Below the pieces are notes generated by a model, which saw nothing but the letters and a program-made list of their open reading frames with translations, ran no database searches and was not told the origin of the DNA. From NCBI GenBank assembly GCA_009760855.2, contig WPIO01000313.1, positions 36,383-100,382 on the forward strand: a stretch of 64,000 nucleotides of DNA, in the 5' to 3' direction. Shown piece after piece: positions 1-40,989 of the stretch; the stretch's first letter is position 1; the number at the start of each line of letters is the position of its first letter. The stretch is from Cristatella mucedo (Eukaryota > Bryozoa > Phylactolaemata > Cristatellidae). The position numbers were made by a program, and so were the translations under genes.

Positions 1-30
1 CTGCCAGACTCCTGGAACGGCATGAAGTCG
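1..30 (+). CDS. LRR exon A of ROCO gene (3' end only)
   Basis: The last ten codons of an exon lie at the window edge and read LPDSWNGMKS, followed by the donor gtaagc. The sequence and donor match the ends of the complete copies downstream, with AAC (N) where the others have AAA (K) or GAC (D). The donor falls after a complete codon, so the exon ends in phase 0. The intron that follows is of the type-1 class, like the introns after exons B, D and G. The rest of the exon lies outside the window. Confidence 0.8.
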
Positions 31-3000
31 GTAAGCTCAGAAGTAAAGTTGCAACGCCTACATTTAAAAAAATGTGTAGCCTAGGCAACGTCTAACTACC
101 ATAAAAAAGAATTGTTAAAGCACTGGTGCACTTTTTTAAAATGCCTATGTCTACGATCAACCGACTCCTTAACTCCTCCCAGATTAGCTATATCCCTAGC
201 AATTATCGTGAAGATCAAGCAGATTGCTTCTGTAGCATCTTTGTCGACAAGATAGACAAGAGCAGGGATTCCATCCCTAGGGTTGCAGCATAACATGCCT
301 ACTGGAATTATGTCATACAACTGCATGGAGCTCCTTAACATCAACGTTCAAGGATGCAATGAGTGGCAATATTCTAAAGTGGATATCCTTATCAAAGAAG
401 AGAAATAGGCCGGTAGACCCTATTCTTGCTCTCCTACTTCCGATATGCTATTATCCATCTTCTGGTTTTATGCATATTTGAAGCAATAAAGATGTCATTA
501 GCCTTTCTTCACATCCCAGCACTTCTCATAAAGGCTATAACCTGGCCACTACTCAAGAAAGCAACGATTGACTGAGAGAAGTTGGGCAACTTCTCAGTCT
601 CTCTTCTATAGCTAATATAAAAGAAGCTGGACTGATTCGTTGCAGACCAGCTGAACTCTTATAGTGGAATTAGAAACGTCGGTAGTAAGATTCAATATGG
701 TTTTAGAACTAATTAGTCAACGGAGTCAACATAACTTCTTGTGTGTTATGACGTTCTTAGTAATGCAGGCTTAAGCTTGTTCGGCTGAATTTTTAGGCTT
801 GTTTTGATACTATCGATATGCCAGTGCTCGTGTGTGGTGCGTCATGCCAGTTTATCACTGGCACTGCACTGCAATAGTCCAGTTATTATCTTAGTAGCCC
901 ACTCCAGGGAATAACCGTTGACGGAAAATGATCAACATGAGACCCTATTTCAAGTTGAGTTGCCTACGGGCTTTGTCCTCAGTTGTGTTCGTTTAACAGT
1001 TGAGATCTGACTGCTTGCCGATTTGATAGCCAGGCACAGTCTAGGCATTCACCACGTAGAGAACACTCACTGGCCCCAATGCTTTTACGCCTCCTAGTCC
1101 TTCAGCATGTAAAATATTCTCACCTTTCATGCTGCATGTATATATGACATCCACACATAAATGTAAGCAAATCTTTAGAAATTAGATGATTAAAGCAACG
1201 TACTCGTTATGGAAAAAACTGTGGAATGTCCAAATGGGTACGGTTATATGGTACAATTGGCTCTGGTCTTTTATATGTATTTTTGAATCTAAGGCTTCCC
1301 ATTTCAAATGGACCGTTTATTGAACGACCTCGTAAGCTCCACCGTCAAGCCTGCATACCTTCAGGTAAATAATATCGTTAAATTCCGGCTTCTTTAGTCT
1401 GGGATACTACATTTATATTGGGAATTTGTGTGCAGCTTCCTGTCTCGACATCCGAAATTCACTGTTCGTTTGCCAGCATTTGCTACACGGTTTCTTTTTC
1501 TTTAGCCCCAGCCTACCTATCAGATTTGCTTCCCCACGAGGCTAAGCATGCTACTACCCACCCTTCTAAATCTGGTAGTTTACCTACACCTCAAATGAAT
1601 GTCTAGTCATTTGGAGACTTGCCATTAGTTCGCATGGTCCTAAAGCCTATACAGACTTCGGCCTATCGTCATGCCATATCCTGACTTTAAAAAGATCTAT
1701 TAATCCCACCACTTAGTGGGTCCGTGTGATTTTCCTTTAGTGTGCTTAACTGCGAGGACACCTTTATTGCTGCCATTAGCCACAGTATCATGGTGACCCT
1801 GTATGTGTCCCCTTTAAGTAGATTGTGCTTGCAGTCATGGAGATTCTAGTAACACTTCCGTCATGCTTCCTTTTCAGGGAATGTAAATTACCTGGAAAGT
1901 TGTCCTTGGATGCTGCATAAATGTATTATTATAGCTTATGTTTGAAACGTATGAATGCTGTAGCCTATTTAGCTGTGTGCACTCAGATGCTGCATCGGTG
2001 TAGTTGAAATCATGTTTAGTTTACATCGCAAATAATATTTTGGTACAGCTACAAATGATCGCACATCGTTTGAACCTAAAATGACGGTTAAAGCAGCTTC
2101 ACAAACAGCTGGTGGTCATTAGCTGCAGAACTGTTTAGAACAATTCCAAACGACACTTCATCTGTAATGATACTTAGCATTTCGCTTTATCTAAAACTTA
2201 ATGCTTTAAATAGCATTAGTTTTTTAAAGCTGGTAACTTTAATCATATTTTCTATTGAAAGGTGTGTCGACTCAGAGTACCTCAGTCGACAAGCTAATTA
2301 CTTGTCAGTCTTGTTATCGATGCTTCCGAAGATACAAGAGTTGTCTTCAGATCGGCCTACAAAGTTCGCACGTAGTTCATACCAAATTAAAAATAGAAGG
2401 TGCTGTTCGGTAACTACACTATTGAATGCTCACATAGATGTGCTTGGTGGAATGCGATTATTCAAAGGCTGACGACTGCACCTTCTAAGAAAGATTATAT
2501 CCTCAGCAAATTTGAAGCTTCTACTTTCGGTGGACACTGTGGCAACTATGCTTTAGCCTTCTCATTTTGTCAAAACTTTGTCGACTGTGTTGGAAACACG
2601 GTCGAGTTCAGGTTAGATAAAAAGAGTGATGCAGAGGGACTTGATAGGGAGGAGATAAAAAAGGTGATGAATACACTTTTTGGTACTTAAACAATTGAGG
2701 ATAACATCTGTCCGTCAGATGACGCACTGGCTTGGCTTATTCCATCCGGTTCATGTAGGGCTCAAGTGTCATCCAGCAACCAAGTCACCCATGAAATCTC
2801 TCAACGGTCGATCCACCTTCCGTTGCTGTTCTCCTTTAGTACTCCACATCTGGGAAAAGTGTTTCAGCTCCATGGCGAAACATTTCGCTTTTCGGCTGAC
2901 GATATGCAACTGTATTTGTCATTAAAACCGTTGGAACCAGCTGCAGCAACTGATAAACTGAATACTTGCCTTGCCGTAGTTCGATCCAGGATGTTGGCTA

Positions 3001-4210
3001 ATAATATCACACTGAGCACTAATTAAACTGGAGGGCTACTCACAGGGTACCAGAAGCATGTGGCAGGACTGCAAGGCTTATCTCTTCTAATAGGTAATAC
3101 TGTTGTGCGACCATCATTGTTTGCTCGGAGTTGGGGTGCCGTCTTTAGCCTACGTTTGGAAAGCTTCGTTAGGAAGACTGCTTCCAGAGCTAATAATGAC
3201 ATCGATCTCTATTTAGGATCAGGAACTGTCGTCCACTGTGTCCTGAACAATATTTTGCTAGCGCCATAGTACTCTCTTATCTACATTTTTGTAAATCCCT
3301 TTAGGCTTGGCTACCTCGAAAAGCCACTAGGCCATTGTAGCTAGCTATGAATAGTGCTACAAGGCTAGTTCGGAAATCCCAGAGATTTTTCTACTTCGTT
3401 AAGAAAGCTTCGATGGCTGCCTATCGATCAACGGATGCAGAGGAGCATTGTCAACTGTGACAGTTACGTTAAGGCTTTAGAGATGAGTGGCACTGATTGT
3501 CAACATTAGCTTGCTGCAGTGTTGTATCTGGCACAAATGCTGCAACATTGTATCTTGTTCTTACTTAAAAGTTTCCGACAAAAGGAACCAAGCAGCTTCC
3601 TAGCTTCGTGTCACCGAATTTCGTCAACTTAGGTCACCTCTTCAAAAGAATATGTCCTCAGGCTTTTCTGCATACCACATTCTTCGGGTACCAGTAATTT
3701 ACATTGATACAAGCAGCGAATCCATGTGCATCCTTGAGTAAACCTACGAGGCACCTCAAACAGTGAAGTCGTTGACTGATATCACAACTTTTCGAGGCTA
3801 TCTGACATTCAAGACGAAACTTGTGTTAGATGTGTTCACTGTATTTACTTCCGGTAGTTTTTACGTTCACTATCTATGTATGCTATATACGTATTGCTGT
3901 CTCAAATTAGTTTTTGTTGGGCTTCATGCTTACTTTAGCAGCTGTAAACTTTTGCATAATTTGTACGACTCTGGAAGTCTTCATTTGTGCCTCACGTCAA
4001 GCGAACATAAATAAAGTGCTACGTTCACGGTGCGGATGATGTTCGACAGATGTTTTACTAGTGCTGTTTATAATGCCGATTATTGTACGACTTCTATGTG
4101 CTGTGTCTGCTACCTATTCATAATACGTTTTTGCTGTTAACTTCCCTTATAGCAATTTTATAAGGCTTGCAAGAGTGCAAACCAGGTATACTTTCCATTT
4201 CTGTTTCTAG
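31..4210 (+). mobile_element. Intron A: two decayed LINE pieces
   Basis: The left piece, about 60-1900, is a CR1/L2-type LINE in + orientation. Readable islands are KIDKIRDSI near 250, a RT stretch LADLIARHSLGIHH near 1015-1055, and the C-terminal PAYLSDLLP near 1510. The right piece, about 2160-4010, is a second LINE family, with the RT core at 2766-3026 (FRFSADDMQLYLSLKPLEP) and VRKTASRA in 3060-3269. Stops and frameshifts break every frame. This is a mosaic: type-1 on the left, with alpha-type sequence from about 2860 onward as in introns C and F. A gene function for the LINE pieces is excluded by the breaks. Confidence 0.85.
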
Positions 4211-4351
4211 CTTACGCACCTCGATATCAGCGGGAACAAGAAGCTAACCACTTTACCTTCTTCGATATGCCAGCTTCAAGCTCTGACAATGCTGGAGGCT
4301 CAGTCTTGTGGCCTAACTAAACTGCCAGACTCCTGGAAAGGCATGAAGTCG
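4211..4351 (+). CDS. LRR exon B of ROCO gene (type 1)
   Basis: This 141-nt exon of 47 open codons encodes two leucine-rich repeats. The first begins LTHLDISGNKKLTTLP and the second ALTMLEAQSCGLTKLP, ending DSWKGMKS. The spacing fits the plain 23-24 residue LRR of ROCO and intracellular LRR proteins. The acceptor tttctgtttctag and donor gtaagc are both strong. Both junctions are phase 0, so adding or removing the exon keeps the frame. It has no start codon and is too short for an ordinary ORF scan. Exons D (12776) and G (26503) are identical in nucleotide sequence, which points to recent duplication or conversion. In the folded protein it would add two turns to the LRR solenoid before the Roc GTPase. 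Confidence 0.9.
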
Positions 4352-7300
4352 GTAAGCTCAGAAGTAGAGTTGCAACGCCTACATTAAAAAAAATGTGTAG
4401 CCTAGGCAACGTCTAACTACCATAACAAAGAATTGTTAAAGCACTGGTGCACTTTTTTAAAATGCCTATGTCTACGATCAACCGACTCCTTAACTCCTCC
4501 CAGATTAGCTATATCCCTAGCAATTATCGTGAAGATCAAGCAGATTGCTTCTGTAGCATCTTTGTCGACAAGATAGACAAGAGCAGGGATTCCATCCCTA
4601 GGGTTGCAGCATAACATGCCTACTGGAATTATGTCCTACAACTGCATGGAGCTCCTTAACATCTACGTTCAAGGAAGCAATGAGTGGCAATATTCTAAAG
4701 TGGATATCCTTATCAAAGAAGAGAAATAGTCCAGTAGACCCTATTCTTGCTCTCCTGCTTCCGATATGCTATTATCCATCTTCTGGTTCCATGCATTTTT
4801 AAAGCAATAAAGATGTCATTAGCCTCTCTTCAAATCCCACTACCTCTCAGAAAGGCTATAACCTGGCCACTACTCAAGAAAGCAACGATTGACTGAGAGA
4901 AGTTGGGCAACTTCTCAGTCTCTCTTCCATAGCTAATATAAAAGAAGCTGGAATGATTCGTTGCAGACCAGCTGAACTCTTATAGTGGAATTAGAAACGT
5001 CGGTAGTAAGATTCAATATGGTTTTAGAACTAATTAGTCCACGGAGTCAACATAACTTCTTGTGTATTATGACGTTCTTAGTAATGCAGGCTTAAGCTTG
5101 TTCGGCTGCATTTTTATGCTTGTTTTGATACTATCGATATGCCAGTGCTCGTGTGTGGTGCGTCTTGCCGGTTTATCACTGGCACTGCACTGCAATAGTC
5201 CAGTTATTATCTCAGTAGCCCACTCCAGAGAATAACCGTTGACGGACAATGATCAACATGGGACCCTATTTCAAGTTGAGGTACCTACGGGCTTTGTCCT
5301 CAGTTGTGTTCGTTTAACAGTTTAGACTGACCGCTTGCCGATTTGATAGCCAGGCACAGTCTAGGCATTCACCACGTAGAGAACACTCACTGGCCCCAAT
5401 CCTTTTTATGCCTGCTAGTCCTTCAGCATGTAAAATATTCTCACATTTCATGCTGCATGTATATATGACAACACACATAAATGTAAGCAAATCTTTATGA
5501 ATTAGATGATTAAAGCAACGTACTCGTTATGGAAAAAACTGTGGAATGTCCAAATGGGTACGGTTATATGGTACAATTGGCTCTGGTCTTTTATATGTAT
5601 TTTTGAATCTAAGGCTTCCCATTTCCAATGGACCGTTTATTGAACGACCTCATAAGCTCCACCGTCAAGCCTGCATACCTTCAGCTAAATAATATCGTTA
5701 AATTCCGGCTTCTTTAGTCTGGGATACTACATATATATTGGTAATTTGTGTGCAGCTTCCTGTCTCGACATCCGAAATTCGCTGTTTGTTTGCCAGCATT
5801 TGCAACACGGTTTCTTTTGCTTTAGTCCCAGCCTACCTATCAGATTTGCTTCCCCGCGAGGCTAAGCATGCTACTACCCACCCTTCTAAATCCGGTGGTT
5901 TAGTGACTTCAAAAGGATGTTTAATAAGCTTCTATTTATGCCACCACTTAGTGGGTCCATGTGATTTTCCTTTTGTGTGCTTAACTGTGAGGACACTGTT
6001 ATTGCTGCCATTAGCCACAGTATCATGGTGACCATGTATGTGTCACCTCTAAGTAAATTGTGCTTGCAGTCATGGAGATTCTAGTAACAGTTCCGTCAAG
6101 CTTCCTTTTCAGGGAATGTAAATTACCTGGAAAGTTGTCCTTGGATGCTGAATAAATATATTATTATAGCTCATATTTGAAACTTATGAATGCTGTAGCC
6201 TATTTAGCTGTGTGCACTCAGATGCTGCATCGGTGTAGTTGAAATCATGTTTAGTTTACATCGCAAATAATATTTTGGTACAGCTACAAATGATTGCACA
6301 TCGTTTGAACCTAAAATGACGGTTAAAGCAGCTTCACAAACAGCTGGTGGTCATTAGCTGCAGAACTGTTTAGAACAATTCCAAACGACACTTCATCTGT
6401 AATGATACTCAGTATTTCGCTTTATCTAAAACTTAACTCTTTAAATAGCATTAGTTATTTAAAGCCGGTAACTTCAATCATATTTTCTATTGAAAGGTTT
6501 GTCGACTCAGAGTACCTCAGTCGACAAGCTAATTACTTGTCAGTCTTGTTATCGATGCTTCCGAAGATACAAGAGTTGTCTTCAGATCGGCCTACAAAGC
6601 GTAGTTCATACCAAATTAAAAATAGAAGGTGCTGTTCGGTAACTACACTATTGAATGCTCACATAGATGTGCTTGGTGGAATGCGATTATTCAAAGGCTG
6701 ACGACTGCACCTTCTAAGAAAGATTATATCCTCAGCAAATTTGAAGCTTCTACTTTCGGTGGACACTGTGGCAACTATGCTTTAGCCTTCTCATTTTGTC
6801 AAAACTTTGTCGACTGTGTTGGAAACACGGTCGAGTTCAGGTTAGATATAACGAGTGATGCAGAGGGACTTGATAGGGAGGAGATAAAAAAGGTGATGAA
6901 TACACTTTTTGGTACTTAAACAATTGAGGATAACATCTGTCCGTCAGATGAAGCACTGGCTTGGCTTATTCCATCCGGTTCATGTAGGGCTCAAGTGTCA
7001 TCCAGCAACCAAGTCACCCATGAAATCTCTCAACGGTCGATCCACCTTCCGTTGCTGTTCTCCTTTAGTACTCCACATCTGGGAAAAATGTTTTAGCTCC
7101 ATAGCGTATCATTTCGCTTTTCGGCTGACGATATGCAACTGTATTTGTCATTAAAACCGTTGGAACCAGCTGCAGCAACTGATAAACTGAATACTTGCCT
7201 TGCCGTAGTTCGATCCTGGATGTTGGCTAATAATATCACACTGAGCACTAATTAAACTGGAGGGCTACTCACAGGGTACCAGAAGCATGTGGCAGAACTG

Positions 7301-8439
7301 CAAAGCTTAGCTCTTCTAATAGGTGATACTGTTGTGCGACCATCATTGTTTGCTCTGAGTTAAGTGGCCGCCTTTTGCCTACATTTGGAAAGCTTTTTTA
7401 GGAAGACTGCTTCCAGAGCTAATAATCACGTCGATCTCTATTTAGGATTGTGAACTGTCGTCCACTGTGTTCTGAAAAATATTTAGCAAGCTCTATAGTA
7501 CTGTCTTATCTACATTATTGTAAATCGCTTTAGGCTTGGCTACCTCGAAAAGCCACTAGGCCATTGTACCTAGCTATGAATAGTGCTACAAGGCTAGTTC
7601 GGAAATCCCAGAAATTTTTCTACTTCGTTAAGAAAGCTTCGATGGCTGCCTAACGATCAATGGATTCAGAGGAGCATTGTCAACTGTGACAGTTAAATTA
7701 AGGCTTTAGAGATGACTGATTCTGATTGCCAATATTAGCTTGCTGCAGTGTTGTATTTGCACAAATGCTGCAACATTGTATCTTGTTCTTACTTAAAAGT
7801 TTCCGACAAAAGGAACCAAGCAGCTTCCTAGCTTCGTGTCACTGAATTTCGTCAACTTAGGTTACCTCTCTAAAAGAATATGTCGTCAGGCTGTTCTGCA
7901 TGCTGCCTTCTTCGGGGACCAGTAATTTACATTGATACAAGCAGCGAATCCATGTGCATCCTTGAGTAAACTTACGAGGCACCTCAAACAGTGAAGTCGT
8001 TGACTGATATCACAACTTTTCGAGGCTATATGACATTAAAGACGAAACTTATGTTAGATGTGTTCACTTTATAGGCTTCCGGTAGTTTTTATGTTCGCTA
8101 TCTATGCATGCTATATACGTATTGCTGTCTCAAATTAGTTTTTTGTTGGTCTTTATGCTTATTTCAGCAGCTGTGAACTGTTGCATAATTTGAACAACTC
8201 TGGAAGTCTTCATTTGTGCAACGTGTAAAGCGAACATTAATAAAGTGCTACGTTCACGTTGCGGATTATGTTCAACAGATGTTTTACTAGTGCTGTTTAT
8301 AATGCCGATTATAGTGTGACTGCTATGTGCTGTGTCTGCTACCTATTTACAATACGTTTTTTGCTGTTAACTTCCCTGATGGCAATTTTATGAGGCTTGC
8401 AAGAGTGTAAACGAGGTTTAATTTTAATTTTTTTTTTAG
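4352..8439 (+). mobile_element. Intron B: two decayed LINE pieces
   Basis: The layout is as in intron A: the left LINE piece is about 4390-6150 and the right piece about 6400-8245, with the RT core near 6996-7254 interrupted by stops. The sequence around 5900-5940 lacks some 70 bp present in intron A, and the same shortened form occurs in intron G near 28190-28230, so B and G share a history. The right half is the beta class, in which the VRKTASRA region is frameshifted and stopped. It leads to a type-2 exon. Confidence 0.85.
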
Positions 8440-8580
8440 CTCGTGCTGCTAGAAATCAGTGGAAACGAGGGGCTAACCACTTTACCTTCCTCGATATACC
8501 AGCTTCAAGCTCTGAAAAGGCTGATGGCTCGTTCTTGTGGCCTAACTGAACTGCGGGACTCCTGGGACGGCATGAAGTCG
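8440..8580 (+). CDS. LRR exon C of ROCO gene (type 2)
   Basis: This 141-nt phase-0 exon has a T-rich acceptor ending ttttttag and the donor gtaagc. The 47 open codons give two LRRs, LVLLEISGNEGLTTLP and ALKRLMARSCGLTELR, ending DSWDGMKS. Compared with type 1, several charged positions are reversed (K to E, K to D, Q to R). The usual LP after the second repeat is LR, and the conserved C of SSICQ is Y. It differs from exons E and F by one base that changes E to G (GGG for GAG). It is interpreted as part of the same ROCO mRNA. Confidence 0.88.
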
Positions 8581-11500
8581 GTAAGCTCAGAAGTAAAATT
8601 GCCAAGCTTAGATTTAAAATAGAAGTTTAGCCTAGGCCACGTCTACCTAATATAAAAAATAATTGTTGAAGCACTGGTGCACTTTTCTAAAATTCCGACG
8701 TCTACGGCCAACAATCACCTTAAACCCTCTGAGGTTACCTATTTACCTAGTGATCCTTGTGATGATCATGATCAGAGCTTCTGTATCATCTTTGTCAACA
8801 AGATATAAAAGATCATATTCCAGCCCTAAGGTGGCAGCTTAACATACCAATTGGTACCATATCTTTCAACTGCATCCAGTTCCACAGTATCTACGTTCAA
8901 GGAAGCAATGGGTGGCAATATTCTAAAGTGGATATCCCAATCAAAGAAAGAGAAATAGTCCAGTAGGCCCTATTCTTGCTCTCCTGTTTCTGACATGCTA
9001 TTGTCTTCTGGTTCTATGCAAATGGTACACAATAAAGAGTCATTAGCCTTTTTTCAAGTCCCAGCACCTTTCAAAAAGGCATTATTTAGGCTACTACTCA
9101 TTAAAGCAACTATTGACCATGAGAACTTGAGCAACTTCTCTGTTTCTCTTCTACAGCTCCTATAAAGAAAGCTGGACTGATTCGTGGCAGACCAGCTGAA
9201 CTCTTATATTGGAATTGCTCACGTAGCGAGTAAGATTCAATCTGGTTATAGAACTAATCAGTCCACGGAGTCAACATAACTTCAGGTGTATTGTGTATGA
9301 CCTTCTTAGGTATGGAGGCTTAAGCTTGTTTGGCTCGAGCTCTCGGCCGGTCTTGACACAATCAATCAGCCAGCCCATCGTGAGTGCGGTCCATCTTGCA
9401 TGCTCATCACTGGCACTGCACTGCAATGGTCGAGTTTCTATCTCAGTAGCCGACTCCAGAAAATAATTGTTTACGGACAAAGATCACTCTCGGACCTTTT
9501 TTCAAGTAGAGGTGTCTCACGGCTCTGTGCTTAGTTGTGTTCGTTTAACAGTTTAGACTGACCACTTGCCAATGTGATAGCCAGGCACAATCTAGGCTTT
9601 CACCACGTATAGAACACTCACTGGCCCCTTTGCTTTTACGCCACCTAGTCCTTCAGTGTGTAAAATATTCTCACCTTTCATGCTGCATGTATATATGAAA
9701 TCCATTCATGAATGTAAGCAAATCTTTATAAATTAGATGATTAAAGCAACTTACTCGTAATGGAAAAAAAAACTGTGGAATTTCCAAAATGGGTACGGTT
9801 ATATTGTACAATCGGCTCTGGTCTTTTATATGTATTATTGAATCTAAGGCTTCCCATTCCAAATGGACCGTTTATTGAACGACCACATGAGTTCTACTGT
9901 CAAGCCTGCATGCCTTCAGCTAAATAATATCATTAAATTCCGGCTTCTTCAGTCTGGAATAATACATTTATATTGGGAATTTTTTGTGCGGCTTCCTGTC
10001 TCGACCTCCGAATTTCACTGTTCGTTTGCCAGCATTTGCAACCAGGTTCCTTTTTCTTTAGCCCCAGCCTACCTATCAGGTTTGCTTCCCCACGAGGCTA
10101 AGCATGCTACTACCCACCCTTCTAAATCTGGTGGGTTACCTACACCTCCAATGAATGTCTAATCCTTTGGATACCTTGTCATTAGTTCGCATGGTTCTAA
10201 AGCCTGAACAGACTTTGGCCAATCGTCATGACGGATCCTGACATTAAAGGATGTTTAAAAGTATATAACTATCCCACCACTTAGTGGGTCCATGTGATTT
10301 CCCTTTTGTGTGCCTAACTGCGAGGACAATTTATTGCTGCCATTAGCCACTGTAGCATGGTGACCCTGTATGTGTCACCTCAAACTAGGTTGTGCTTGTA
10401 GTCATGGAGCATTCTAGTAACAGTTTCGTCCTGCTCTCTTTTAAGGAAATTTAAGTTACTTAGTTGTCTTAAGATGCTTCGTAAATGTATTATCATTGCT
10501 TATATATAAAACTTATGAATGCTGAAGCCTATTGAGGTGTGTACACTCTGATGCTGCACGGTGTATCTGGAATCATGTCTAGTTCATATTGAAAATAATA
10601 TTTTTGATATGGCTAAAATGATTACACATTGTTGGAACCTAAAATGACGGTTAAAGCAGCTTCGCAAACAGCTGGTGTTTCTTAGCTGCAGAACTGTTTA
10701 GAACAATTCCAAACAAGACTTCACCTGTAATGATACTTAGCATTTCGCTTTATCTAAAACTTAATGCTTTAAATAGCATTAGTTTTTTAAAGCTGGTAAC
10801 TTTAATCATATTTTCTATTGAAAGGTTTGTCGACTCAGAGTACCTCAGTCGACAAGCTAATTACTTGTCAGTCTTTTTTATCGATGCTTCCAAAGATACA
10901 AGAATTGTCTTCAGATCAGCGTACGAAGTTCGCATGTAGTTCATACCAAATTAAAAATACAAGGAGCTGTTCGGTAACTACGCTATTAACTGCTCACATA
11001 TATGAGCTTGGTGGAATGCGATTATTCAAAGGCTGATGACTGCACCCTCTAAGAAAGATTATATCCTCAGCAAACTTGACGCTTCTACTTTCGGTGGACA
11101 CTGGTAACTATTCTTTAGCCTTCTCATTCGGTCAATAATTCTTGGACTTTGTTGGAAACACGGTCGAGTTCAGGTTAGATAAAAGAGTGATGCAGAGGAT
11201 CTTGATAGGGAGAAGATAAAAAAAAGTGACTAATACACTTTTTTGGTACTTAAACAGTTGCGGACAACATCTGTCCGTCAGATGAAGAACTGGCTTGGTT
11301 TATTCCATCCGGTTCATGTAGGGCTCAAGTGTCATCCAGCAACCAAGTCACCTGTGGAATCCCTCAACGGTCCATCCTCGTTCCGTTGTTGTTCTCCTTA
11401 AGTACTCTAAATCTGAGAAAAGTGTTTCAGCTCCATGGCGAAACATTTCGCTTTTCGGCTGACGATATGCAACTGTATTTGTCATTAAAACCGTTGGAAC

Positions 11501-12775
11501 CAGCTGCAGCAACTGATAAACTGAAATACTTGCCTTGCCGTAGTTCGATCCAGGATGTTGGCTAATAATATCACACTGAGCACTAATTAAACTGGAGGGC
11601 TACTCACAGGGTACCAGAAGCATGTGGCAGGACTGCAAGGCTTATCTCTTCTAATAGGTAATACTGTTGTGCGACCATCATTGTTTGCTCGGAGTTGGGG
11701 TGCCGTCTTTAGCCTACGTTTGGAAAGCTTCGTTAGGAAGACTGCTTCCAGAGCTAATAATGACATCGATCTCTATTTAGGATCAGGAACTGTCGTCCAC
11801 TGTGTCCTGAACAATATTTTGCTAGCGCCATAGTACTCTCTTATCTACATTTTTGTAAATCCCTTTAGGCTTGGCTACCTCGAAAAGCCACTAGGCCATT
11901 GTAGCTAGCTATGAATAGTGCTACAAGGCTAGTTCGGAAATCCCAGAGATTTTTCTACTTCGTTAAGAAAGCTTCGATGGCTGCCTATCGATCAACGGAT
12001 GCAGAGGAGCATTGTCAACTGTGACAGTTACGTTAAGGCTTTAGAGATGAGTGGCACTGATTGTCAACATTAGCTTGCTGCAGTGTTGTATCTGGCACAA
12101 ATGCTGCAACATTGTATCTTGTTCTTACTTAAAAGTTTCCGACAAAAGGAACCAAGCAGCTTCCTAGCTTCGTGTCACCGAATTTCGTCAACTTAGGTCA
12201 CCTCTTCAAAAGAATATGTCCTCAGGCTTTTCTGCATACCACATTCTTCGGGGTACCAGTAATTTACATTGATACAAGCAGCGAATCCATGTGTATCCTT
12301 GAGTAAACCTACGAGGCACCTCAAACAGTGAAGTCGTTGACTGATATCACAACTTTTCGAGGCTATCTGACATTCAAGACAAAACTTGTGTTAGATGTGT
12401 TCACTGTATTTACTTCCGGTAGTTTTTACGTTCACTATCTATGTATGCTATATACGTATTGCTGTCTCAAATTAGTTTTTGTTGGGCTTCATGCTTACTT
12501 TAGCAGCTGTAAACTTTTGCATAATTTGTACGACTCTGGAAGTCTTCATTTGTGCCTCACGTCAAGCGAACATAAATAAAGTGCTACGTTCACGGTGCGG
12601 ATGATGTTCGACAGATGTTTTACTAGTGCTGTTTATAATGCCGATTATTGTACGACTTCTATGTGCTGTGTCTGCTACCTATTCATAATACGTTTTTGCT
12701 GTTAACTTCCCTTATAGCAATTTTATAAGGCTTGCAAGAGTGCAAACCAGGTATACTTTCCATTTCTGTTTCTAG
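8581..12775 (+). mobile_element. Intron C: two decayed LINE pieces
   Basis: The left piece is type 2: it shares the variants of introns E and F, for example CNQVPF in the C-terminal part near 10045. The right RT piece has SNQVTCGIPQRSILVPLLF at 11329 onward, close to the canonical PQGS-PLLF motif, then SADDMQLYLSLKPLEP. The C-terminal stretch is at 11624-11833 (alpha class). One extra base near 11524 shifts the frame before the stop at 11565. The sequence from about 11430 to 12975 is almost identical to 2870-4420, so the right half of this unit and exon D are shared with the A-B interval. Confidence 0.85.
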
Positions 12776-21426: not shown

Positions 21427-21567
21427 CTCGTGCTGCTAGAAATCAGTGGAAACGAGGAGCTAACCACTTTACCTTCCTCGATATACCAGCTTCAAGCTCT
21501 GAAAAGGCTGATGGCTCGTTCTTGTGGCCTAACTGAACTGCGGGACTCCTGGGACGGCATGAAGTCG
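21427..21567 (+). CDS. LRR exon F of ROCO gene (type 2)
   Basis: This is a 141-nt phase-0 exon with the same sequence as exon E, encoding two LRRs (LVLLEISGNEELTTLP, then ALKRLMARSCGLTELR). It follows exon E directly, so type-2 exons occur side by side here, breaking the otherwise alternating order. The acceptor (long T run, then ag) and donor (gtaagc) are intact. The intron after it is the longest in the array. Confidence 0.88.
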
Positions 21568-24500: not shown

Positions 24501-26502
24501 GCATTATTTATTTAAAGCTGGTAACTTTAATCATATTTTCTATTGAAAGGTTTGTCGACTCAGAGTACCTCAGTCGACAAGCTAATTACTTGTCAGTCTT
24601 TTTATCGATGCTTCCAAAGATACAAGAATTGTCTTCAGATCAGCGTACGAAGTTCGCATGTAGTTCATACCAAATTAAAAATACAAGGAGCTGTTCGGTA
24701 ACTACGCTATTAACTGCTCACATATATGAGCTTGGTGGAATGCGATTATTCAAAGGCTGATGACTGCACCCTCTAAGAAAGATTATATCCTCAGCAAACT
24801 TGACGCTTCTACTTTCGGTGGACACTGGTAACTATTCTTTAGCCTTCTCATTCGGTCAATAATTCTTGGACTTTGTTGGAAACACGGTCGAGTTCAGGTT
24901 AGATAAAAAGAGTGATGCAGAGGATCTTGATAGGGAGAAGATAAAAAAAAAGTGACTAATACACTTTTTGGTACTTAAACAGTTGCGGACAACATCTGTC
25001 CGTCAGATGAAGAACTGGCTTGGTTTATTCCATCCGGTTCATGTAGGGCTCAAGTGTCATCCAGCAACCAAGTCACCTGTGGAATCCCTCAACGGTCCAT
25101 CCTCGTTCCGTTGTTGTTCTCCTTAAGTACTCTAAATCTGAGAAAAGTGTTTCAGCTCCATGGCGAAACATTTCGCTTTTCGGCTGACGATATGCAACTG
25201 TATTTGTCATTAAAACCGTTGGAACCAGCTGCAGCAACTGATAAACTGAATACTTGCCTTGCCGTAGTTCGATCCAGGATGTTGGCTAATAATATCACAC
25301 TGAGCACTAATTAAACTGGAGGGCTACTCACAGGGTACCAGAAGCATGTGGCAGGACTGCAAGGCTTATCTCTTCTAATAGGTAATACTGTTGTGCGACC
25401 ATCATTGTTTGCTCGGAGTTGGGGTGCCGTCTTTAGCCTACGTTTGGAAAGCTTCGTTAGGAAGACTGCTTCCAGAGCTAATAATGACATCGATCTCTAT
25501 TTAGGATCAGGAACTGTCGTCCACTGTGTCCTGAACAATATTTTTGCTAGCGCCATAGTACTCTCTTATCTACATTTTTTTGTAAATCCCTTTAGGCTTG
25601 GCTACCTCGAAAAGCCACTAGGCCATTGTAGCTAGCTATGAATAGTGCTACAAGGCTAGTTCGGAAATCCCAGAGATTTTTCTACTTCGTTAAGAAAGCT
25701 TCGATGGCTGCCTATCGATCAACGGATGCAGAGGAGCATTGTCAACTGTGACAGTTACGTTAAGGCTTTAGAGATGAGTGGCACTGATTGTCAACATTAG
25801 CTTGCTGCAGTGTTGTATCTGGCACAAATGCTGCAACATTGTATCTTGTTCTTACTTAAAAGTTTCCGACAAAAGGAACCAAGCAGCTTCCTAGCTTCGT
25901 GTCACCGAATTTCGTCAACTTAGGTCACCTCTTCAAAAGAATATGTCCTCAGGCTTTTCTGCATACCACATTCTTCGGGTACCAGTAATTTACATTGATA
26001 CAAGCAGCGAATCCATGTGCATCCTTGAGTAAACCTACGAGGCACCTCAAACAGTGAAGTCGTTGACTGATATCACAACTTTTCGAGGCTATCTGACATT
26101 CAAGACGAAACTTGTGTTAGATGTGTTCACTGTATTTACTTCCGGAAGTTTTTTACGTTCACTATCTATGTATGCTATATACGTATTGCTGTCTCAAATT
26201 AGTTTTTGTTGGGCTTCATGCTTACTTTAGCAGCTGTAAACTTTTGCATAATTTGTACGACTCTGGAAGTCTTCATTTGTGCCTCACGTCAAGCGAACAT
26301 AAATAAAGTGCTACGTTCACGGTGCGGATGATGTTCGACAGATGTTTTACTAGTGCTGTTTATAATGCCGATTATTGTACGACTTCTATGTGCTGTGTCT
26401 GCTACCTATTCATAATACGTTTTTGCTGTTAACTTCCCTTATAGCAATTTTATAAGGCTTGCAAGAGTGCAAACCAGGTATACTTTCCATTTCTGTTTCT
26501 AG
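21568..26502 (+). mobile_element. Intron F: decayed LINEs with extra rearranged block
   Basis: This intron is about 740 bp longer than its neighbours. Up to about 22537 it is type-2 left sequence. A piece of about 100 bp from the right half follows (22538-22635), then a type-1 left segment (about 22644-22970), then type-2 left sequence again, so that the block at 22258-22467 is repeated at 22999-23208. The rest is ordinary: the left piece ends near 24200, the RT core is at 25054-25314 (SNQVTCGIPQRSILVPLLF, SADDMQLY) and the C-terminal part at 25348-25635 (alpha class). It leads to a type-1 exon. Confidence 0.88.
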
Positions 26503-26643
26503 CTTACGCACCTCGATATCAGCGGGAACAAGAAGCTAACCACTTTACCTTCTTCGATATGCCAGCTTCAAGCTCTGACAATGCTGGAGGCTCAGTCTTG
26601 TGGCCTAACTAAACTGCCAGACTCCTGGAAAGGCATGAAGTCG
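26503..26643 (+). CDS. LRR exon G of ROCO gene (type 1)
   Basis: This is a 141-nt phase-0 exon, identical to exons B and D, encoding two LRRs and ending SWKGMKS before the donor gtaagc. The acceptor is tttctgtttctag. The flanking intron sequence on its right is also nearly identical to that after exon B, including small deletions. So the B-unit and G-unit, 22 kb apart, are closer to each other than to the units between them. Confidence 0.9.
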
Positions 26644-29600
26644 GTAAGCTCAGAAGTAGAGTTGCAACGCCTACATTAAAAAAAATGTGTAGCCTAGGCA
26701 ACGTCTAACTACCATAACAAAGAATTGTTAAAGCACTGGTGCACTTTTTTAAAATGCCTATGTCTACGATCAACCGACTCCTTAACTCCTCCCAGATTAG
26801 CTATATCCCTAGCAATTATCGTGAAGATCAAGCAGATTGCTTCTGTAGCATCTTTGTCGACAAGATAGACAAGAGCAGGGATTCCATCCCTAGGGTTGCA
26901 GCATAACATGCCTACTGGAATTATGTCCTACAACTGCATGGAGCTCCTTAACATCTACGTTCAAGGAAGCAATGAGTGGCAATATTCTAAAGTGGATATC
27001 CTTATCAAAGAAGAGAAATAGTCCAGTAGACCCTATTCTTGCTCTCCTGCTTCCGATATGCTATTATCCATCTTCTGGTTCCATGCATTTTTTAAAGCAA
27101 TAAAGATGTCATTAGCCTCTCTTCAAATCCCACTACCTCTCAGAAAGGCTATAACCTGGCCACTACTCAAGAAAGCAACGATTGACTGAGAGAAGTTGGG
27201 CAACTTCTCAGTCTCTCTTCCATAGCTAATATAAAAGAAGCTGGAATGATTCGTTGCAGACCAGCTGAACTCTTATAGTGGAATTAGAAACGTCGGTAGT
27301 AAGATTCAATATGGTTTTAGAACTAATTAGTCCACGGAGTCAACATAACTTCTTGTGTATTATGACGTTCTTAGTAATGCAGGCTTAAGCTTGTTCGGCT
27401 GCATTTTTATGCTTGTTTTGATACTATCGATATGCCAGTGCTCGTGTGTGGTGCGTCTTGCCGGTTTATCACTGGCACTGCACTGCAATAGTCCAGTTAT
27501 TATCTCAGTAGCCCACTCCAGAGAATAACCGTTAACGGACAATGATCAACATGGGACCCTATTTCAAGTTGAGGTACCTACGGGCTTTGTCCTCAGTTGT
27601 GTTCGTTTAACAGTTTAGACTGACCGCTTGCCGATTTGATAGCCAGGCACAGTCTAGGCATTCACCACGTAGAGAACACTCACTGGCCCCAATCCTTTTA
27701 TGCCTGCTAGTCCTTCAGCATGTAAAATATTCTCACATTTCATGCTGCATGTATATATGACAACACACATAAATGTAAGCAAATCTTTATGAATTAGATG
27801 ATTAAAGCAACGTACTCGTTATGGAAAAAACTGTGGAATGTCCAAATGGGTACGGTTATATGGTACAATTGGCTCTGGTCTTTTATATGTATTTTTTGAA
27901 TCTAAGGCTTCCCATTTCCAATGGACCGTTTATTGAACGACCTCATAAGCTCCACCGTCAAGCCTGCATACCTTCAGCTAAATAATATCGTTAAATTCCG
28001 GCTTCTTTAGTCTGGGATACTACATATATATTGGGAATTTGTGTGCAGCTTCCTGTCTCGACATCCGAAATTCGCTGTTTGTTTGCCAGCATTTGCAACA
28101 CGGTTTCTTTTGCTTTAGTCCCAGCCTACCTATCAGATTTGCTTCCCCGCGAGGCTAAGCATGCTACTACCCACCCTTCTAAATCCGGTGGTTTAGTGAC
28201 TTCAAAAGGATGTTTAATAAGCTTCTATTTATGCCACCACTTAGTGGGTCCATGTGATTTTCCTTTTGTGTGCTTAACTGTGAGGACACTGTTATTGCTG
28301 CCATTAGCCACAGTATCATGGTGACCATGTATGTGTCACCTCTAAGTAAATTGTGCTTGCAATCGTGGAGATTCTAGTAACAGTTCCGTCAAGCTTCCTT
28401 TTCAGGGAATGTAAATTACCTGGAAAGTTGTCCTTGGATGCTGAATAAATATATTATTATAGCTCATATTTGAAACTTATGAATGCTGTAGCCTATTTAG
28501 CTGTGTGCACTCAGATGCTGCATCGGTGTAGTTGAAATCATGTTTAGTTTACATCGCAAATAATATTTTGGTACAGCTACAAATGATTGCACATCGTTTG
28601 AACCTAAAATGACGGTTAAAGCAGCTTCACAAACAGCTGGTGGTCATTAGCTGCAGAACTGTTTAGAACAATTCCAAACGACACTTCATCTGTAATGATA
28701 CTCAGTATTTCGCTTTATCTAAAACTTAACTCTTTAAATAGCATTAGTTATTTAAAGCCGGTAACTTCAATCATATTTTCTATTGAAAGGTTTGTCGACT
28801 CAGAGTACCTCAGTCGACAAGCTAATTACTTGTCAGTCTTTTGATCGATGCTTCCGAAGATACAAGAGTTGTCTTCAGATCGGCCTACAAAGTTCGCACC
28901 TAGTTCATACCAAATTAAAAATAGAAGGTGCTGTTCGGTAACTACACTATTGAATGCTCACATAGATGTGCTTGGTGGAATGCGATTATTCAAAGGCTGA
29001 CCACTGCACCTTCTAAGAAAGATTATATCCTCAGCAAATTTTACGCTTCTACTTTCGGTGGACACTGTGGCAACTATGCTTTAGCCTTCTCATTTTGTCA
29101 AAACTTTGTCGACTGTGTTGGAAACACGGTCGAGTTCAGGTTAGATAAAAAGAGTGATGCAGAGGGACTTGATAGGGAGGAGATAAAAAAGATGATGAAT
29201 ACACTTTTTGGTACTTAAACAATTGAGGATAACATCTGTCCGTCAGATGACGCACTGGCTTGGCTTATTCCATCCGGTTCATGTAGGGCTCAAGTGTCAT
29301 CCAGCAACCAAGTCACCCATGAAATCTCTCAACGGTCAATCCACCTTCCGTTGCTGTTCTCCTTTAGTACTCCACATCTGGGAAAAAATGTTTCAGCTCC
29401 ATTGCGTAACATTTCGCTTTTCGGCTGACGATATGCAACTGTATTTGTCATTAAAACCGTTGGAACCAGCTGCAGCAACTGATAAACTGAATACTTGCCT
29501 TGCCGTAGTTCGATCCAGGATGTTGGCTAATAATATCACACTGAGCACTAATTAAACTGGAGGGCTACTCACAGGGTACCAGAAGCATGTGACAGAACTG

Positions 29601-30738
29601 CAAAGCTTAGCTCTTCTAATAGGTGATACTGTTGTGCGACCATCATTGTTTGCTCTGAGTTAAGTGGCCGCCTTTTGCCTATATTTGGAAAGCTTTTTTA
29701 GGAAGACTGCTTCCAGAGCTAATAATCACGTCGATCTCTATTTAGGATTATGAACTGTCGTCCACTATGTCCTGAAAAATATTTAGCTAGCTTTATAGTA
29801 CTGTCTTATCTACATTATTGTAAATCGCTTTAGGCTTGGCTACCTCGAAAAGCCACTAGGCCATTGTACCTAGCTATGAATAGTGCTACAAAGCTAGTTC
29901 GGAAATCCCAGAAATTTTTCTACTTCGTTAAGAAAGCTTCGCTGGCTGCCTAACGATCAATGGATTCAGAGGAGCATAGTCAACTGTGACAGTTAGATTA
30001 AGGCTTTAGAGATGACTGACTCTGATTGTCAATATTAGCTTGCTGCAGTGTTGTATTTGCACAAATGCTGCAACATTGTATCTGGTTCTTACTTAAAAGT
30101 TTCCGACAAAAGAAACCAAGCAGCTTCCTAGCTTCGTGTCACTGAATTTCGTCAACTTAGGTCACCTCTGTAAAAGAATATGTCGTCAGGCTGTTCTGCA
30201 TGCTGCCTTCTTCGGGGACCAGTAATTTACATTGATACAAGCAGCGAATCCATGTGCATCCTTGAGTAAACTTACGAGGCACCTCAAACAGTGAAGTCGT
30301 TGACTGATATCACAACTTTTTGAGGCTATATGACATTAAAGACGAAACTTATGTTAAATGTGTTCTCTTTATTGGCTTCCGGTAGTTTTTATGTTCGCTA
30401 TCTATGCATGCTATATACGTATTGCTGTCTCAAATTAGTTTTTTGATGGTCTTTATGCTTATTTCAGCAGCTTTGAACTGTTGCATAATTTGAACAACTC
30501 TGGAAGTCTTCATTTGTGCAACGTGTAAAGCGAACATTGATAAAGTGCTACGTTCACGTTGCGGATTATGTTCAACAGATGTTTTACTAGTGCTGTTTAT
30601 AATGGCGATTATAGTGCGACTGCTATGTGCTGTGTCTGCTACCTATTTACAATACGTTTTTGCTGTTAACTTCTCTGATGGCAATTTTACGAGGCTTGCA
30701 AGAGTGTAAACGAGGTTTATTTTTAATTTTTTTTTTAG
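26644..30738 (+). mobile_element. Intron G: two decayed LINE pieces
   Basis: It is very close to intron B: the left piece is about 26690-28450 and the right piece about 28690-30520. The RT region 29208-29555 reads through SADDMQLYLSLKPLEP, with a small insertion in the poly-A at 29386 joining two frames. The right half is beta class and leads to exon H. The short form around 28190-28230 is shared with intron B. Confidence 0.85.
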
Positions 30739-30879
30739 CTCGTGCTGCTAGAAATCAGTGGAAACGAGGAGCTAACCACTTTACCTTCTTCGATATGCCA
30801 GCTTCAAGCTTTGAAAACGCTGGAGGCTCGTTCTTGTGGCCTAACTGAACTGCCAGACTCCTGGGACGGCATGAAGTCG
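30739..30879 (+). CDS. LRR exon H of ROCO gene
   Basis: This 141-nt phase-0 exon has a T-rich acceptor and donor gtaagc. It encodes LVLLEISGNEELTTLP and ALKTLEARSCGLTELP, ending DSWDGMKS. It keeps the canonical C in SSICQ and the LP after the second repeat, so it looks closest to the consensus from which types 1 and 2 could derive. The intron after it is more diverged than those of units A-G, which suggests this copy is from an older layer of the array. Confidence 0.88.
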
Positions 30880-33604
30880 GTAAGCTCAGAAGTAAAATTG
30901 CCAAGCCTAGATTTAAAGAAAAAGTTCAGCCTAGGCCACATCTACCACATCTAAAAAACAATCGTTGAAGCACTGGTGCACTTTTCTAAGATCCTGATGT
31001 CCATGATCAACCATCACTTTTACCCCGCCCAGGTTACCTATTTATCTAGTGATCCTTGTGATGATCAAGCTAATTGGTCATGTAGCTTCTCCATCAACAA
31101 GATAAACAAGATCAGGGATTCCATCTCAAGGGTGGCAGCTTAACATGCCCACTGGAATCATATCCAACAACTGCATGCGACTCTTCAGTATCTACGTTCA
31201 AGCAAGCTATGAGTGGCATCATTCTGAAGTGGATATCCCAATCAAAAAAGAGAAAAAGTCCGATACACCCTCCTCTGGCTCTCCTGCTTCTGAGACGCTA
31301 TTATCTTCTGGTTCTATGCACATTTAATGCAATAAATATGTCATTAGCCATACTTCAAATCCCAGCACCTTTCAAAAAGGCTATATTCAGGCCACTACTC
31401 AAGAAAGGAATGCTTGACCAAGAGAACTTGAGCGATTTCTCAGTCTCTCTTCTACAGTTCCTATAAAAGAAGCTGGACTGATTTTTGGAAGACCAGCTGA
31501 ACTCATATATGAACTGATTGTGTAGCTAGTAAGATTAAATCTGGTTATAGAACTAATCAGTCCACGGATTCAACATGAATTCGGGTGTGTACCTTAAAAT
31601 GCAGGCTTGAACTTGTTTCTTTTAAGCTTTCAGCTGATTTTAATACTGTCAATCAGCCAGTCCTTCTTGAGTGAGGCCCATCGTTCCTGTTCATCACTGC
31701 CATTATCGATGCTTCTGAAGTTACAAGGGTTGCCTGTATGTCGGCCTATTAAGTTGGCCTGTTGTGGATACCAAATTAGAAATGGAAGGAGCTGTTAGGT
31801 AACTACTGCATTAAGTGCTGACATTAATCTGCTTGGTGGAATGCGATTATTCAAAGGCTGATAATTGCATCTTTTAGCAGAGATCATATGCTCAGCAAAT
31901 TTGCAGCTTTTACTTTTAATTTACTCTATGGCAACTATGTTCTAGTCTTCTCCTCTTGTCGAAAATGTGTCGACTTTGTTGCAAACGCAGTCGATTTCAG
32001 TTAAGGTAATGGGAGTGATGCAGAGGGACCTAATAGATAGGAGATAAAAAAGGTGATGAATACACTTTTTGCTACTAGAACGATTGAAAATAACATCCGT
32101 CTGACAGATGAGGCACTAGCATGGTTTAATCTATCTGTGTCGTGTAGGGCTCAAGTGTCATCCACCAGCCAAGTCACCTGTTGAGTTCCTCAACGGTCTA
32201 TCCTCCTTGCGTTGCTGTTCTACTTTTATACTCAAACTCTGGGAAAAGTGTTTCAGGCCCTTGGCGTAGCCATTCGCTATTAGGCTGACGATATGCAACT
32301 GTATTTGTCATTCAAACCGCTGGAACCAGCTGCAGCAACTGATAAACTAAATACTCGCCTTGCCCACATTCGTTCCTATATGTCGGCTAATGTTGTTAAT
32401 CTGAGCGATAATATAATTGAAGTGCTACTCATACGGCACCCGAAGCACGTCGCTGGATTACACGGCTTTTCTCTTCTAATACGTGATACTGTTGTGCAAC
32501 CATCATCGTGTGCTCGGCATTGGGGGGGGGGCTGTCCTTCGCCTACATTTGGAAAGCTTCGTTAAGAAGACTGCTTCCAGAGCTATTAATAATGTCGATC
32601 CCAATTTAAGACAAGGAACTGTCGTCTGTAGTGTCTTGAAAAATATTCAGCTAGCTCTATAGTACTGTCTTATCTAGATTATTGTGAACACATTTAGGTT
32701 AGGCTACCTGGAAAAGCCACTAGGCCAGTGCAGCTAGCTATGAATAGGGCTACAAGGCGAGTTCCGTAAATCCGAGAGGTTCCTCTCTTTCTTTAAGAAA
32801 GCTTCGGTGGCTGCCGGTTGATCGATGGATGCAGAGGAACGCTGTCCACCACGACAGTTAGGTTAAGGCTTTAGAGATGACTGGCACGGGTTGTCGAGGG
32901 TAGCTTGCTGCAGTGTTGTATGTGGCACAACTTCCTGCAACGTTGTATCTAGTTCTTACGTCAAAGTTTCCTACAAAAATAATAGAGCAGCTTCTTAGCT
33001 TCGTGTCACCGAATTTTTTCGAATTTGATCACCTCTTCAAAAGAATATGTCCTTAGCCTTTTCTGCATACTCCCTTCTTAAAGGACCAGTAATTGACATT
33101 GATACAAACCACGATTCAATTTGCGTTCTTGACTAAACCTAAGAGGCACCTAAAACTGTGAACTTGTTGACTGATATCACAACTTTTCGAGGCTTATGAT
33201 ATTCAAGACGAAACGTATGTAAGATATGTTCACTTTATAGACTTCCGGTAGTTTTTATATTGACTATATATGTATACTATATACGTATTGCTATCTCCAA
33301 TTAGTTTTTGTTGCTCTTAATGCTTATTTCAGCATCTGTGAGCTGTATCATGTTTCGAACGGCTCTAAAAGTCTTCATTTCTTCCACGTGTAAAGGGAAC
33401 ATAAATAAAGTGTTATGTTCATGCTGCAGATTGTGTTCAACAGATATTTTACTAGTGCTGTTGATATTGCCGATTATAGTATGACTTCAATGTGCTGTGT
33501 CTGCTACCTATTTAGAATATGTCATTGCGGTTAACTTCTCTTACGGCACATTTATGAGGCTTGCAAGAGAGTAAACCATGTTTATTTTCCATTTATATTT
33601 CTAG
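30880..33604 (+). mobile_element. Intron H: shorter, diverged LINE pieces
   Basis: The left LINE piece starts about 30960 and includes INKINKIRDSI near 31090 and an RT stretch LSADFNTVNQPVLL near 31630, related to the usual LSAAFDTIDH motif. It then joins directly, near 31697, to sequence that in units A-G lies about 1.45 kb further on. The RT core is near 32150-32565 (MQLYLSFKPLEPAAATDKLN and PKHVAGL at about 32293-32465). It is less degenerate over the RT C-terminal part than its relatives upstream, and clearly diverged from them in sequence. Confidence 0.82.
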
Positions 33605-33949
33605 CTTGAGCTGCTCATTAATAATAATAATAGTAATAATATTACTGCACTTGATAAAGCGCCCTCAGAGAACTTAATCTCTTTCTAGGTGCTTTACATT
33701 TGCTGCAAAGGGAAATGCAATTGAACGATAACTAAAATCACTCTTGAAAAACAAACAAAATGAATAATATGGTTAGGGGTGGCATGCACAGGGTCAGCAT
33801 GCAAATGTGGTTAGTGGCAGCATATCAGCGGAAACGAGAAGCTAACCACTTTACCCTCCGTGATATGCCAGCTTCAAGCTCTGAAAACGCTGGTGGCTCG
33901 TTTTTGTGGCCTAACTGAACTGCCAGACTGCCGGGACGGCATGAAGTCG
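33605..33949 (+). CDS. LRR exon I, split by an inserted LINE tail
   Basis: The original acceptor (ttctag at 33599-33604) and the first four codons, LELL, are present. About 200 bp of foreign sequence follow, then the rest of the exon from ATATCAGC at 33822: ISGNEKLTTLP, ALKTLVARFCGLTELP, DCRDGMKS, and donor gtaagc. Read through, the insertion gives a stop at 33686-33688. An AG within the inserted tail (before 33815 or 33821) could serve as a new acceptor and would restore phase 0 with only the first few residues changed. Without that, the exon would have to be skipped, which also keeps the frame because the neighbours are phase 0. Confidence 0.75.
33617..33820 (-). mobile_element. LINE 3' end inserted in LRR exon I
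   Basis: Starting with ATTAATAATAATAATAGT, it then has the conserved tail sequence (cttgataaagcgccctc, ctttctaggtgctttac) and ends near ggtcagcatgcaaatgtgg and ttagtggcagca. The same sequence occurs in opposite orientation at 56230-56415 and in the same orientation at 62235-62460. In those copies it continues from the C-terminal region of a LINE, so this is the 3' terminus of a CR1/L2-type element with an ATT microsatellite tail, inserted antisense to the gene. Confidence 0.8.
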
Positions 33950-40485: not shown

Positions 40486-40488
40486 CAG

Positions 40489-40920: not shown

Positions 40921-40989
40921 GTCCTCCGTGACCTCGGCATCCCAAGACAGGTAGGTCTTGTGTGGCTCTCTTTACGTAGCTGCAGGCTG

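Follow-up and report, generated by a model that had tools for sequence, protein, structure and literature searches.

The 64-kb window analysed here, the whole stretch G000:C237:36383-100382 on the + strand, contains a tandem array of exons that each encode exactly two leucine-rich repeats (LRRs), followed by an exon encoding a Roc GTPase domain and a predicted COR domain. We take these to belong to an animal LRR-Roc-COR (ROCO) gene whose LRR arm is the array itself and changes by homologous exchange, with a long interspersed nuclear element (LINE) carried along as a passenger, and we put the probability of this reading at about 0.8. It is carried by the anatomy of the array, the homology of the downstream exons, a pair of recombinant introns, a bias in the positions at which exon copies differ, and the recurrence of such arrays across the genome, which comprises 572 Mb in 688 contigs. 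That the host is an animal follows from its Wnt family genes, which are animal specific: they gave 48 matches in the genome (best, 3.6e-60) and none in any of 14 control genomes.

Two-LRR exons ahead of a Roc-COR exon

Each intact exon is 141 nt long and in phase 0 at both ends, and its 47 amino acids form two whole LRR turns, one of 24 residues (LxxLxIxxNxxLxxLPxxIxxLxx) and one of 23 residues (LxxLxAxxCGLxxLPDxWxxMKS, apart from two type-specific changes). The acceptors are pyrimidine rich, the donor reads GTAAGC after a terminal TCG, and across an exon-to-exon join the LRR repeat runs on uninterrupted. A blind pattern consisting of AG, 141 nt of open frame, and GTAAG was matched seven times on the + strand of the 64 kb, precisely at the seven intact exons, and never on the - strand. 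All on the + strand, these exons are E2 (4211-4351), E3 (8440-8580), E4 (12776-12916), E5 (17096-17236), E6 (21427-21567), E7 (26503-26643), and E8 (30739-30879), and they are spaced by 4.2 to 5.1 kb, with a final step of 2.9 kb to the ninth copy. Type A comprises the identical exons E2, E4, and E7; type B comprises E3, E5, and E6 (the last two identical) and, more distantly, E8, a third type that differs from B at 8 nt and from A at 19 nt. Types A and B differ at 24 of 141 nt, and type A is recognized by Pfam as LRR_1 above the cut-off (4.5e-6).

At the two ends of this row, on the same strand, only the last 30 nt of E1 (1-30) lie within the window, the whole exon (C237:36272-36412) being intact, and the ninth copy, E9 (33605-33949), has an in-frame stop and is broken by an interspersed repeat of about 208 bp at 33616-33823. 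An earlier note on this stretch had counted nine exon copies in a row, each in phase 0 at both ends and encoding exactly two repeats; the tandem array and the exon design stand, and nine intact copies are ruled out. Repeats related to the one in E9 lie elsewhere in the window, at 62229-62428, 57252-57333, and 56279-56412 (- strand). On the contig as a whole, the array has 17 copies, 14 of them intact, and extends upstream to the contig start. Ahead of the window, two three-exon stretches (C237:1615-11096 and 22993-32092) have spacings of 2731/6610 and 2659/6301 and almost identical middle exons, and probably represent an older block duplication.

Downstream of the array, on the same strand, in order, and likewise in phase 0, there follow a 36-amino-acid LRR exon (38468-38575; phase 0-0) and a 655-amino-acid exon that ends in a stop codon (51200-53164); both are open and have good splice sites. 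The former gave a Pfam LRR_4 score of 26.6 bits, just under the cut-off of 27, in a scan that included 19 codons past the donor. The latter carries a Roc GTPase domain (Pfam PF08477; E value of 1e-10, 42.3 bits against a cut-off of 27), and the array does lie upstream of a Roc-COR exon, as the note had it. A Pfam search of this exon gave no match to COR; the predicted fold nevertheless places a COR domain directly behind Roc, with matches to LRRK1 (8e05), LRRK2 (8fo9), the Chlorobium tepidum LRR-Roc-COR protein (6hlu), and a Roco COR domain (3dpt), in a model with a mean predicted local distance difference test (pLDDT) score of 72.8 and an unreliable C-terminal stretch of about 100 residues.

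An arrangement of this kind is found in related database proteins. P0005 and P0006 contain 8 and 7 consecutive 47-amino-acid dimers, respectively, in the same register and before Roc, so that LRR and Roc are combined within one predicted protein, and the LRR part of P0005 is predicted to form a regular solenoid (pLDDT mostly above 90). A further Roc-bearing protein, P0007 (1237 amino acids), has 11 consecutive LRR dimers of 46 amino acids, so that two-LRR units are also present in ROCO proteins beyond this group. A search with the joined protein also matched MFHAS1-like proteins of Lingula and Branchiostoma, and a profile search for Roc-COR relatives returned the same two proteins as an earlier search.

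If the exons are transcribed and spliced together, each would contribute two complete LRR turns; because two full turns are bounded by phase 0 on either side, the gain, loss, or skipping of units would keep both the frame and the solenoid. The frame-neutral growth of two-LRR modules ahead of the Roc-COR exon that the note had proposed agrees with this anatomy. Since the intact exons share phase 0-0 and similar splice sites, any subset of them would also keep the frame, and the array could mainly be a substrate for alternative splicing, with isoforms using subsets of the two-LRR exons and dead exons being skipped. Alternative splicing has been reported for NLRP3 and for brown-algal ROCO genes, and dead exons do persist within the array; we consider this role possible though doubtful, and it would be compatible with growth by exchange rather than exclusive of it. 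The statement that the exons lack ATGs is not correct, each of the seven intact exons having at least one in-frame ATG, but they would indeed be missed by open reading frame callers because the open frame spans only 58 to 71 codons. Genes of this kind are missed because their exons have 47 codons and their introns consist of kilobases of old repeats.

Recombinant introns and the LINE within them

The eight introns were aligned together with the exons that follow them, and U1 to U7 were used for site groupings. The half-intron downstream of an exon is of one of two kinds, alpha after A and beta after B; alpha and beta, like the A and B intron windows, are 75 to 95% identical. A total of 316 sites separate U1, U2, U4, and U7 from U3, U5, and U6, all at or before column 3601, and 97 sites separate U1, U3, and U6 from U2, U4, U5, and U7, all at or after column 3817. 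The ordinary parental introns run from alpha to B and from beta to A; their reciprocal recombinants are therefore U1, in which alpha is followed by A, and U5, in which beta is followed by B. U1 (31-4210, + strand) continues from its alpha half as in U3 and U6 after a switch at 2853-2859 (columns 3601-3608), and U5 (17237-21426, + strand) continues from its beta half as in U4 after a switch at 20094-20104 (columns 3627-3637), so the two switches are only 19 to 36 columns apart in unit coordinates. With gap columns excluded, U1 past its switch shows 1 difference from U6 in 1493 sites, and U5 shows 3 differences from U6 in 2857 sites ahead of its switch and 0 from U4 in 1462 sites past it.

Together, the two switches delimit a four-unit block (A B A B; 2859-20094, + strand; about 17.2 kb) that is a putative insertion. 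When this block is excised in silico, an A-B-A-B array remains, and the flanks, once joined, show 35 differences from U4 in 4318 sites; the ends of the block, closed upon each other, differ from U6 at 4 of 4330 sites. The simplest account of these sequences would be that one four-unit block was inserted by homologous exchange, through either a circle with one crossover or two unequal crossovers, both of which would fit alike. This would be the youngest visible step in an otherwise alternating A-B array. More generally, unequal homologous exchange between units of about 4.3 kb would alter both the length and the content of the array, with each exon traveling together with its intron, and copy number would presumably differ between individuals. 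That array length has been changed by homologous exchange was also the view of the note, and the reciprocal introns bear it out.

Other introns have been rearranged as well. U6 contains a patch of 741 bp (22290-23030, + strand; bounds taken from the alignment) composed of intron sequence that has diverged, a 95-bp piece belonging to a different place of the LINE, and a partial intron repeat, and it includes material of a unit type seen nowhere else in the window. The partial intron repeat within it passes from alpha-like to beta, resembling a templated insertion. The introns upstream of the window are older mosaics; in 300-base tiles, the one after C237:31953 changes type near unit position 1800.

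Mis-joined repeats might in principle produce an apparent array or apparent recombinant introns. C237 starts inside a unit (LINE match at C237:1-481), the ends of C173 and C239 lie no more than about 3 kb from an exon, and C193 starts 1.6 kb before one, as hard repeats do; two exons have frameshifts in short runs. In addition, an 89-base run identical in U4 and U6 (columns 3638-3728) comes right after the U5 switch. Across columns 3601-3637, however, the runs of identity between the parental U4 and U6 are at most 14 bases from marker to marker, and on either side U1 and U5 each track one parent at all markers; runs of this length are too short to have been collapsed into one graph node. Misassembly through a long identical stretch is thus unsupported at the switches, although the 89-base run begins just after one of them. 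Exon types and intron halves also remain coupled, arrays with different unit lengths recur at other loci, and P0005 and P0006 have the same dimer array, all of which makes an assembly artefact very improbable.

The introns contain a decayed non-long terminal repeat (non-LTR) retrotransposon, or LINE, presumably of a CR1/L2-like clade. A better-preserved relative (L015:2299-3009, - strand) matched the reverse transcriptase family RVT_1 at 1.6e-17 and an intron piece at 1e-7 over 37 amino acids, whereas a direct Pfam scan of the decayed intron pieces gave no RVT_1 match. Among the best-scored 40 of 2208 candidates in the genome, copies at least 79% identical occur only in C237 (14), C256 (4), and C228 (1); the further matches are dispersed copies of 70 to 76% identity. 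Because the LINE occupies one place in units that can be aligned over their full length, it represents a single old insertion; the note was right that the introns hold dead LINE sequence, but the exons do not each have a LINE of their own.

The LINE could nevertheless have driven amplification, its copies either supplying homology or moving the exon by retrotransposition, a proposal made for the LRR genes of Tetrahymena. The units of this array contain LINE sequence homologous to a reverse transcriptase, the switches of U1 and U5 fall within it, a different LINE piece occupies one place in each of three units of C148, and LINE pieces lie near some exons of C107 and C193. Such a role is hard to reconcile with one old insertion at one place and with close copies confined to three contigs among the candidates considered. 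Moreover, C150 and C167 (at least three units each) and C49 (two exons) are arrays that gave no LINE match with 14 peptides from the window, the queries used for all other loci, with which other LINE families could be missed; the C237 LINE has therefore been inherited as cargo, and arrays do not depend on having one. The upstream intron after C237:31953 switches type elsewhere, so whole-unit homology is enough, and the exons keep their introns, which argues against a spliced retro-copy. LINE-driven amplification is thus unlikely, and the LINE as a general driver is rejected on the restriction of its close copies to few arrays among the 40 best-scored candidates and on the arrays with no LINE match to the window peptides. 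The claim that LINE copies drive the process by supplying the homology is accordingly not supported: the sole well-resolved junction pair lies in the LINE, yet some arrays gave no LINE match with these peptides and one upstream intron switches type elsewhere. As an old insertion copied along with the units, the LINE would provide a share of the homology without being the cause of the exchange.

Recurrence across the genome and variation of the concave surface

With one exon as the query, at least 150 matches to the two-LRR exon were found on at least 25 contigs, and at least 21 contig strands had three or more; the counts are of the matches scored among 200 candidates. Roc-COR matches in the genome (64, merged by hand) fell into 35 places, 18 of which have such exons within 60 kb among the exon matches listed, and in 16 of the 18 the exons are upstream on the same strand. 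The remaining two are on C215 and at the first Roc on C114, where the adjacent exons precede the second Roc. Conversely, 14 of the 21 arrays listed are followed by a Roc-COR match on the same strand within 90 kb, and 7 have none in that range. Unit length varies from locus to locus; it is, for example, about 6.1 kb in C148, about 3.1 kb in both C150 and C167, and about 3.8 kb in C193. Forty short stretches were fetched over other matches, and exon models were chosen by a score requiring an open frame and splice sites; 31 contain an intact 141-nt exon, 5 (all on C550) contain an intact 138-nt exon, and 4 contain neither. Two side observations concern these loci. The Roc-COR matches at C150:175739 and C274:33782 have the same identity (76%) and the same number of internal stops (two TAG), and would be either allelic contigs or copies from a recently duplicated gene that was already broken. 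The arrays on C193, C470, C491, and C509 share a period of about 3.8 kb, with steps that alternate between about 1.3 and about 2.5 kb wherever the listing includes both matches, and are apparently fragments of very similar arrays.

Of 60 exons, 55 have their nearest sampled exon at their own locus, and all five exceptions are between C237 and C256. The latter contig carries a second array (G000:C256:26903-45145) whose LRR exons are only 4 to 18 nt of 141 from those of C237 and which includes an E9-like exon with the same insertion flank. The Roc-COR stretch 28 kb downstream, to which this array presumably belongs, has one internal TGA and is only 47% identical to that of C237. On this sequence comparison, LRR units may have passed from one ROCO gene to another.

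The positions at which copies differ were compared for 60 exons (56 distinct) from 10 loci. Two exons were dropped, C256_L044 (a broken relative of E9, mis-framed) and C150_2 (tail out of frame); the five 138-nt exons of C550, L040, L042, and L071 (no 141-nt model), C167 positions 9610 and 15744, the C193 exons, and the three broken C237 exons lay outside the sample. Within loci, amino acid differences per site were 0.064 for the scaffold, 0.492 for the concave xLxLxx positions, and 0.262 for other exposed positions. The concave excess was matched by 174 of 200000 random position sets (200 of 100000 with C237 excluded), and synonymous changes showed no such excess (4913 of 20000). Variation between copies thus concentrates on the presumed recognition surface, in keeping with the change of recognition surface that the note had envisaged. 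The ratio of nonsynonymous to synonymous differences (pN/pS) was 0.21 for the scaffold (bootstrap interval, 0.14 to 0.34), and scaffold residues, a list drawn in part from this exon family, showed fewer changes than a simple neutral simulation (P values of 0.0045 and 0.0016); for stop codons the simulation was uninformative, about half of the simulated exons staying open. Scaffold constraint is therefore clear, whereas positive selection is not established. Selection would hold the LRR scaffold, while exposed residues, those of the concave strand above all, drift or diversify.

A number of observations weigh against the reading of a functional, diversifying ROCO array. Among the 16 Roc-COR places with upstream exons, six have internal stops (C150, C274, C49:73025, C263, C256, and C245), two matches are shorter than 60 amino acids (C114:340146 and C80), and for three the upstream exon matches listed number no more than one or two (C274, C245, and C49:960172). 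On C237, 3 of 17 exons are broken (C237:4346 by +2, C237:31953 by -1, and E9 by insertion), although the two frameshifts, indels within short runs, may be assembly errors. No complete gene is visible, as the first exon is off the contig, and the LRR join between 38575 and 51200 is irregular, so that an exon may be missing in this 12.6-kb intron. Type B exons and the 36-amino-acid exon match Pfam LRR families below the cut-off only, types A and B are conserved at the DNA level no better than the adjoining introns, and the top E value in the joined-protein search belongs to a plant NLR, the LRRs alone being responsible. As to selection, the concave pN/pS of 1.25 (0.88 to 2.14) is not clearly above 1, the interval spanning that value, and other exposed positions give 1.11 (0.81 to 2.32); in C237 alone the two values are 0.75 and 2.00, and in C114 other exposed positions are more variable than concave ones. 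Finally, the position sets, taken from the LRR consensus and from a brown-algal report whose site numbering was matched to this exon by our own reading, were fixed after the exons had been viewed, and some scaffold residues (A, C, W, and M) come from this exon family.

The broken exons, the internal stops at related loci, and the gene start not found on this contig would also fit a decaying array, once an LRR-ROCO gene and now largely a pseudogene. Open frames and good splice sites in 14 of 17 exons and in both downstream exons, together with the scaffold constraint, argue otherwise, and we regard decay as unlikely. A functional LRR-ROCO gene with an exchanging array might be taken further, to animal ROCO genes as a large, fast-changing family of recognition receptors whose LRR blocks are copied, inserted, and passed between paralogues, so that individuals or even somatic cells would differ in repertoire. 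Insertion would then possibly proceed via excised circles, since the U1 and U5 switches and the block between them fit one Campbell-type integration. A receptor role of some kind may be presumed for the present gene; this wider view is speculative and, on balance, unlikely.

Comparison with known LRR exon systems

In domain order, LRR followed by Roc-COR, the predicted protein resembles the animal ROCO proteins of the MFHAS1/MASL1-like and LRRK groups, LRRK1 and LRRK2 being the top fold matches. Unlike LRRK, the Roc-COR exon of the window ends in a stop codon, and no kinase was seen; to our knowledge, homogeneous 47-amino-acid dimers are not a feature of LRRK1 or LRRK2. The NLRP genes, which have a NACHT domain, share the logic of the exon. 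In the passages considered here, those such as human NLRP3 are described as having 171-bp exons with two LRRs of alternating length, 28 and 29 (PMC6642158), similar to the exactly two LRRs of alternating length (24 and 23) and the kept frame of the present exons, which differ in being 141 nt long and in belonging to a Roc-COR gene. The same passages describe no recent tandem amplification of exon plus intron, and they give a peak of human LRR exons at 141 to 147 bp (PMC6642158); exons of this size thus occur in other animal genes.

A Tetrahymena study describes arrays of 90-bp phase-2 LRR exons in about 1000 or more LRR genes per species, with a LINE-like element beside the repeat units and unequal crossing over as the proposed mechanism (PMC6564038). 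Tandem LRR exons of fixed length with a LINE nearby are common to both systems; here, however, the exons have 141 nt, are in phase 0, and belong to ROCO genes, and the LINE is an inherited passenger in one subgroup of arrays.

The closest parallel is found in the brown algae, whose in-frame arrays of LRR exons in LRR-ROCO genes have been proposed as a generator of immune receptors. In these algae the exons are 72 bp long, in phase 2, and encode one LRR each, they undergo exon shuffling and alternative splicing, and concave positions are variable, with positive selection reported at four of them (PMC11378527; Zambounis et al. 2012 as cited there). A ROCO GTPase, tandem in-frame LRR exons, and variable concave positions are thus shared with that description, whereas the present exons have 141 nt, phase 0, and two LRRs, kilobase introns travel with the exon, and the host is an animal. 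No report of animal ROCO genes with tandem LRR exon arrays was found among the top-ranked results in the open-licence literature. The principle is known; what is new is the animal ROCO context, the 141-nt phase-0 two-LRR module amplified at many loci, and the resolved block insertion. That the principle recurs, with another module, at many loci of an animal genome suggests more than one origin, and in an animal system of this kind the growth of arrays, the exchange of exons between paralogues, and the diversification of the surface could be measured directly from long reads.

Two minor features lie ahead of the Roc-COR exon. Remains of an LTR-type retroelement occupy 39604-42232 of this intron on the - strand, with an integrase core match (rve, 3.9e-6), below the cut-off, and aspartyl protease-like pieces. 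A simple repeat tract at 48024-48488 keeps an 8-base register.

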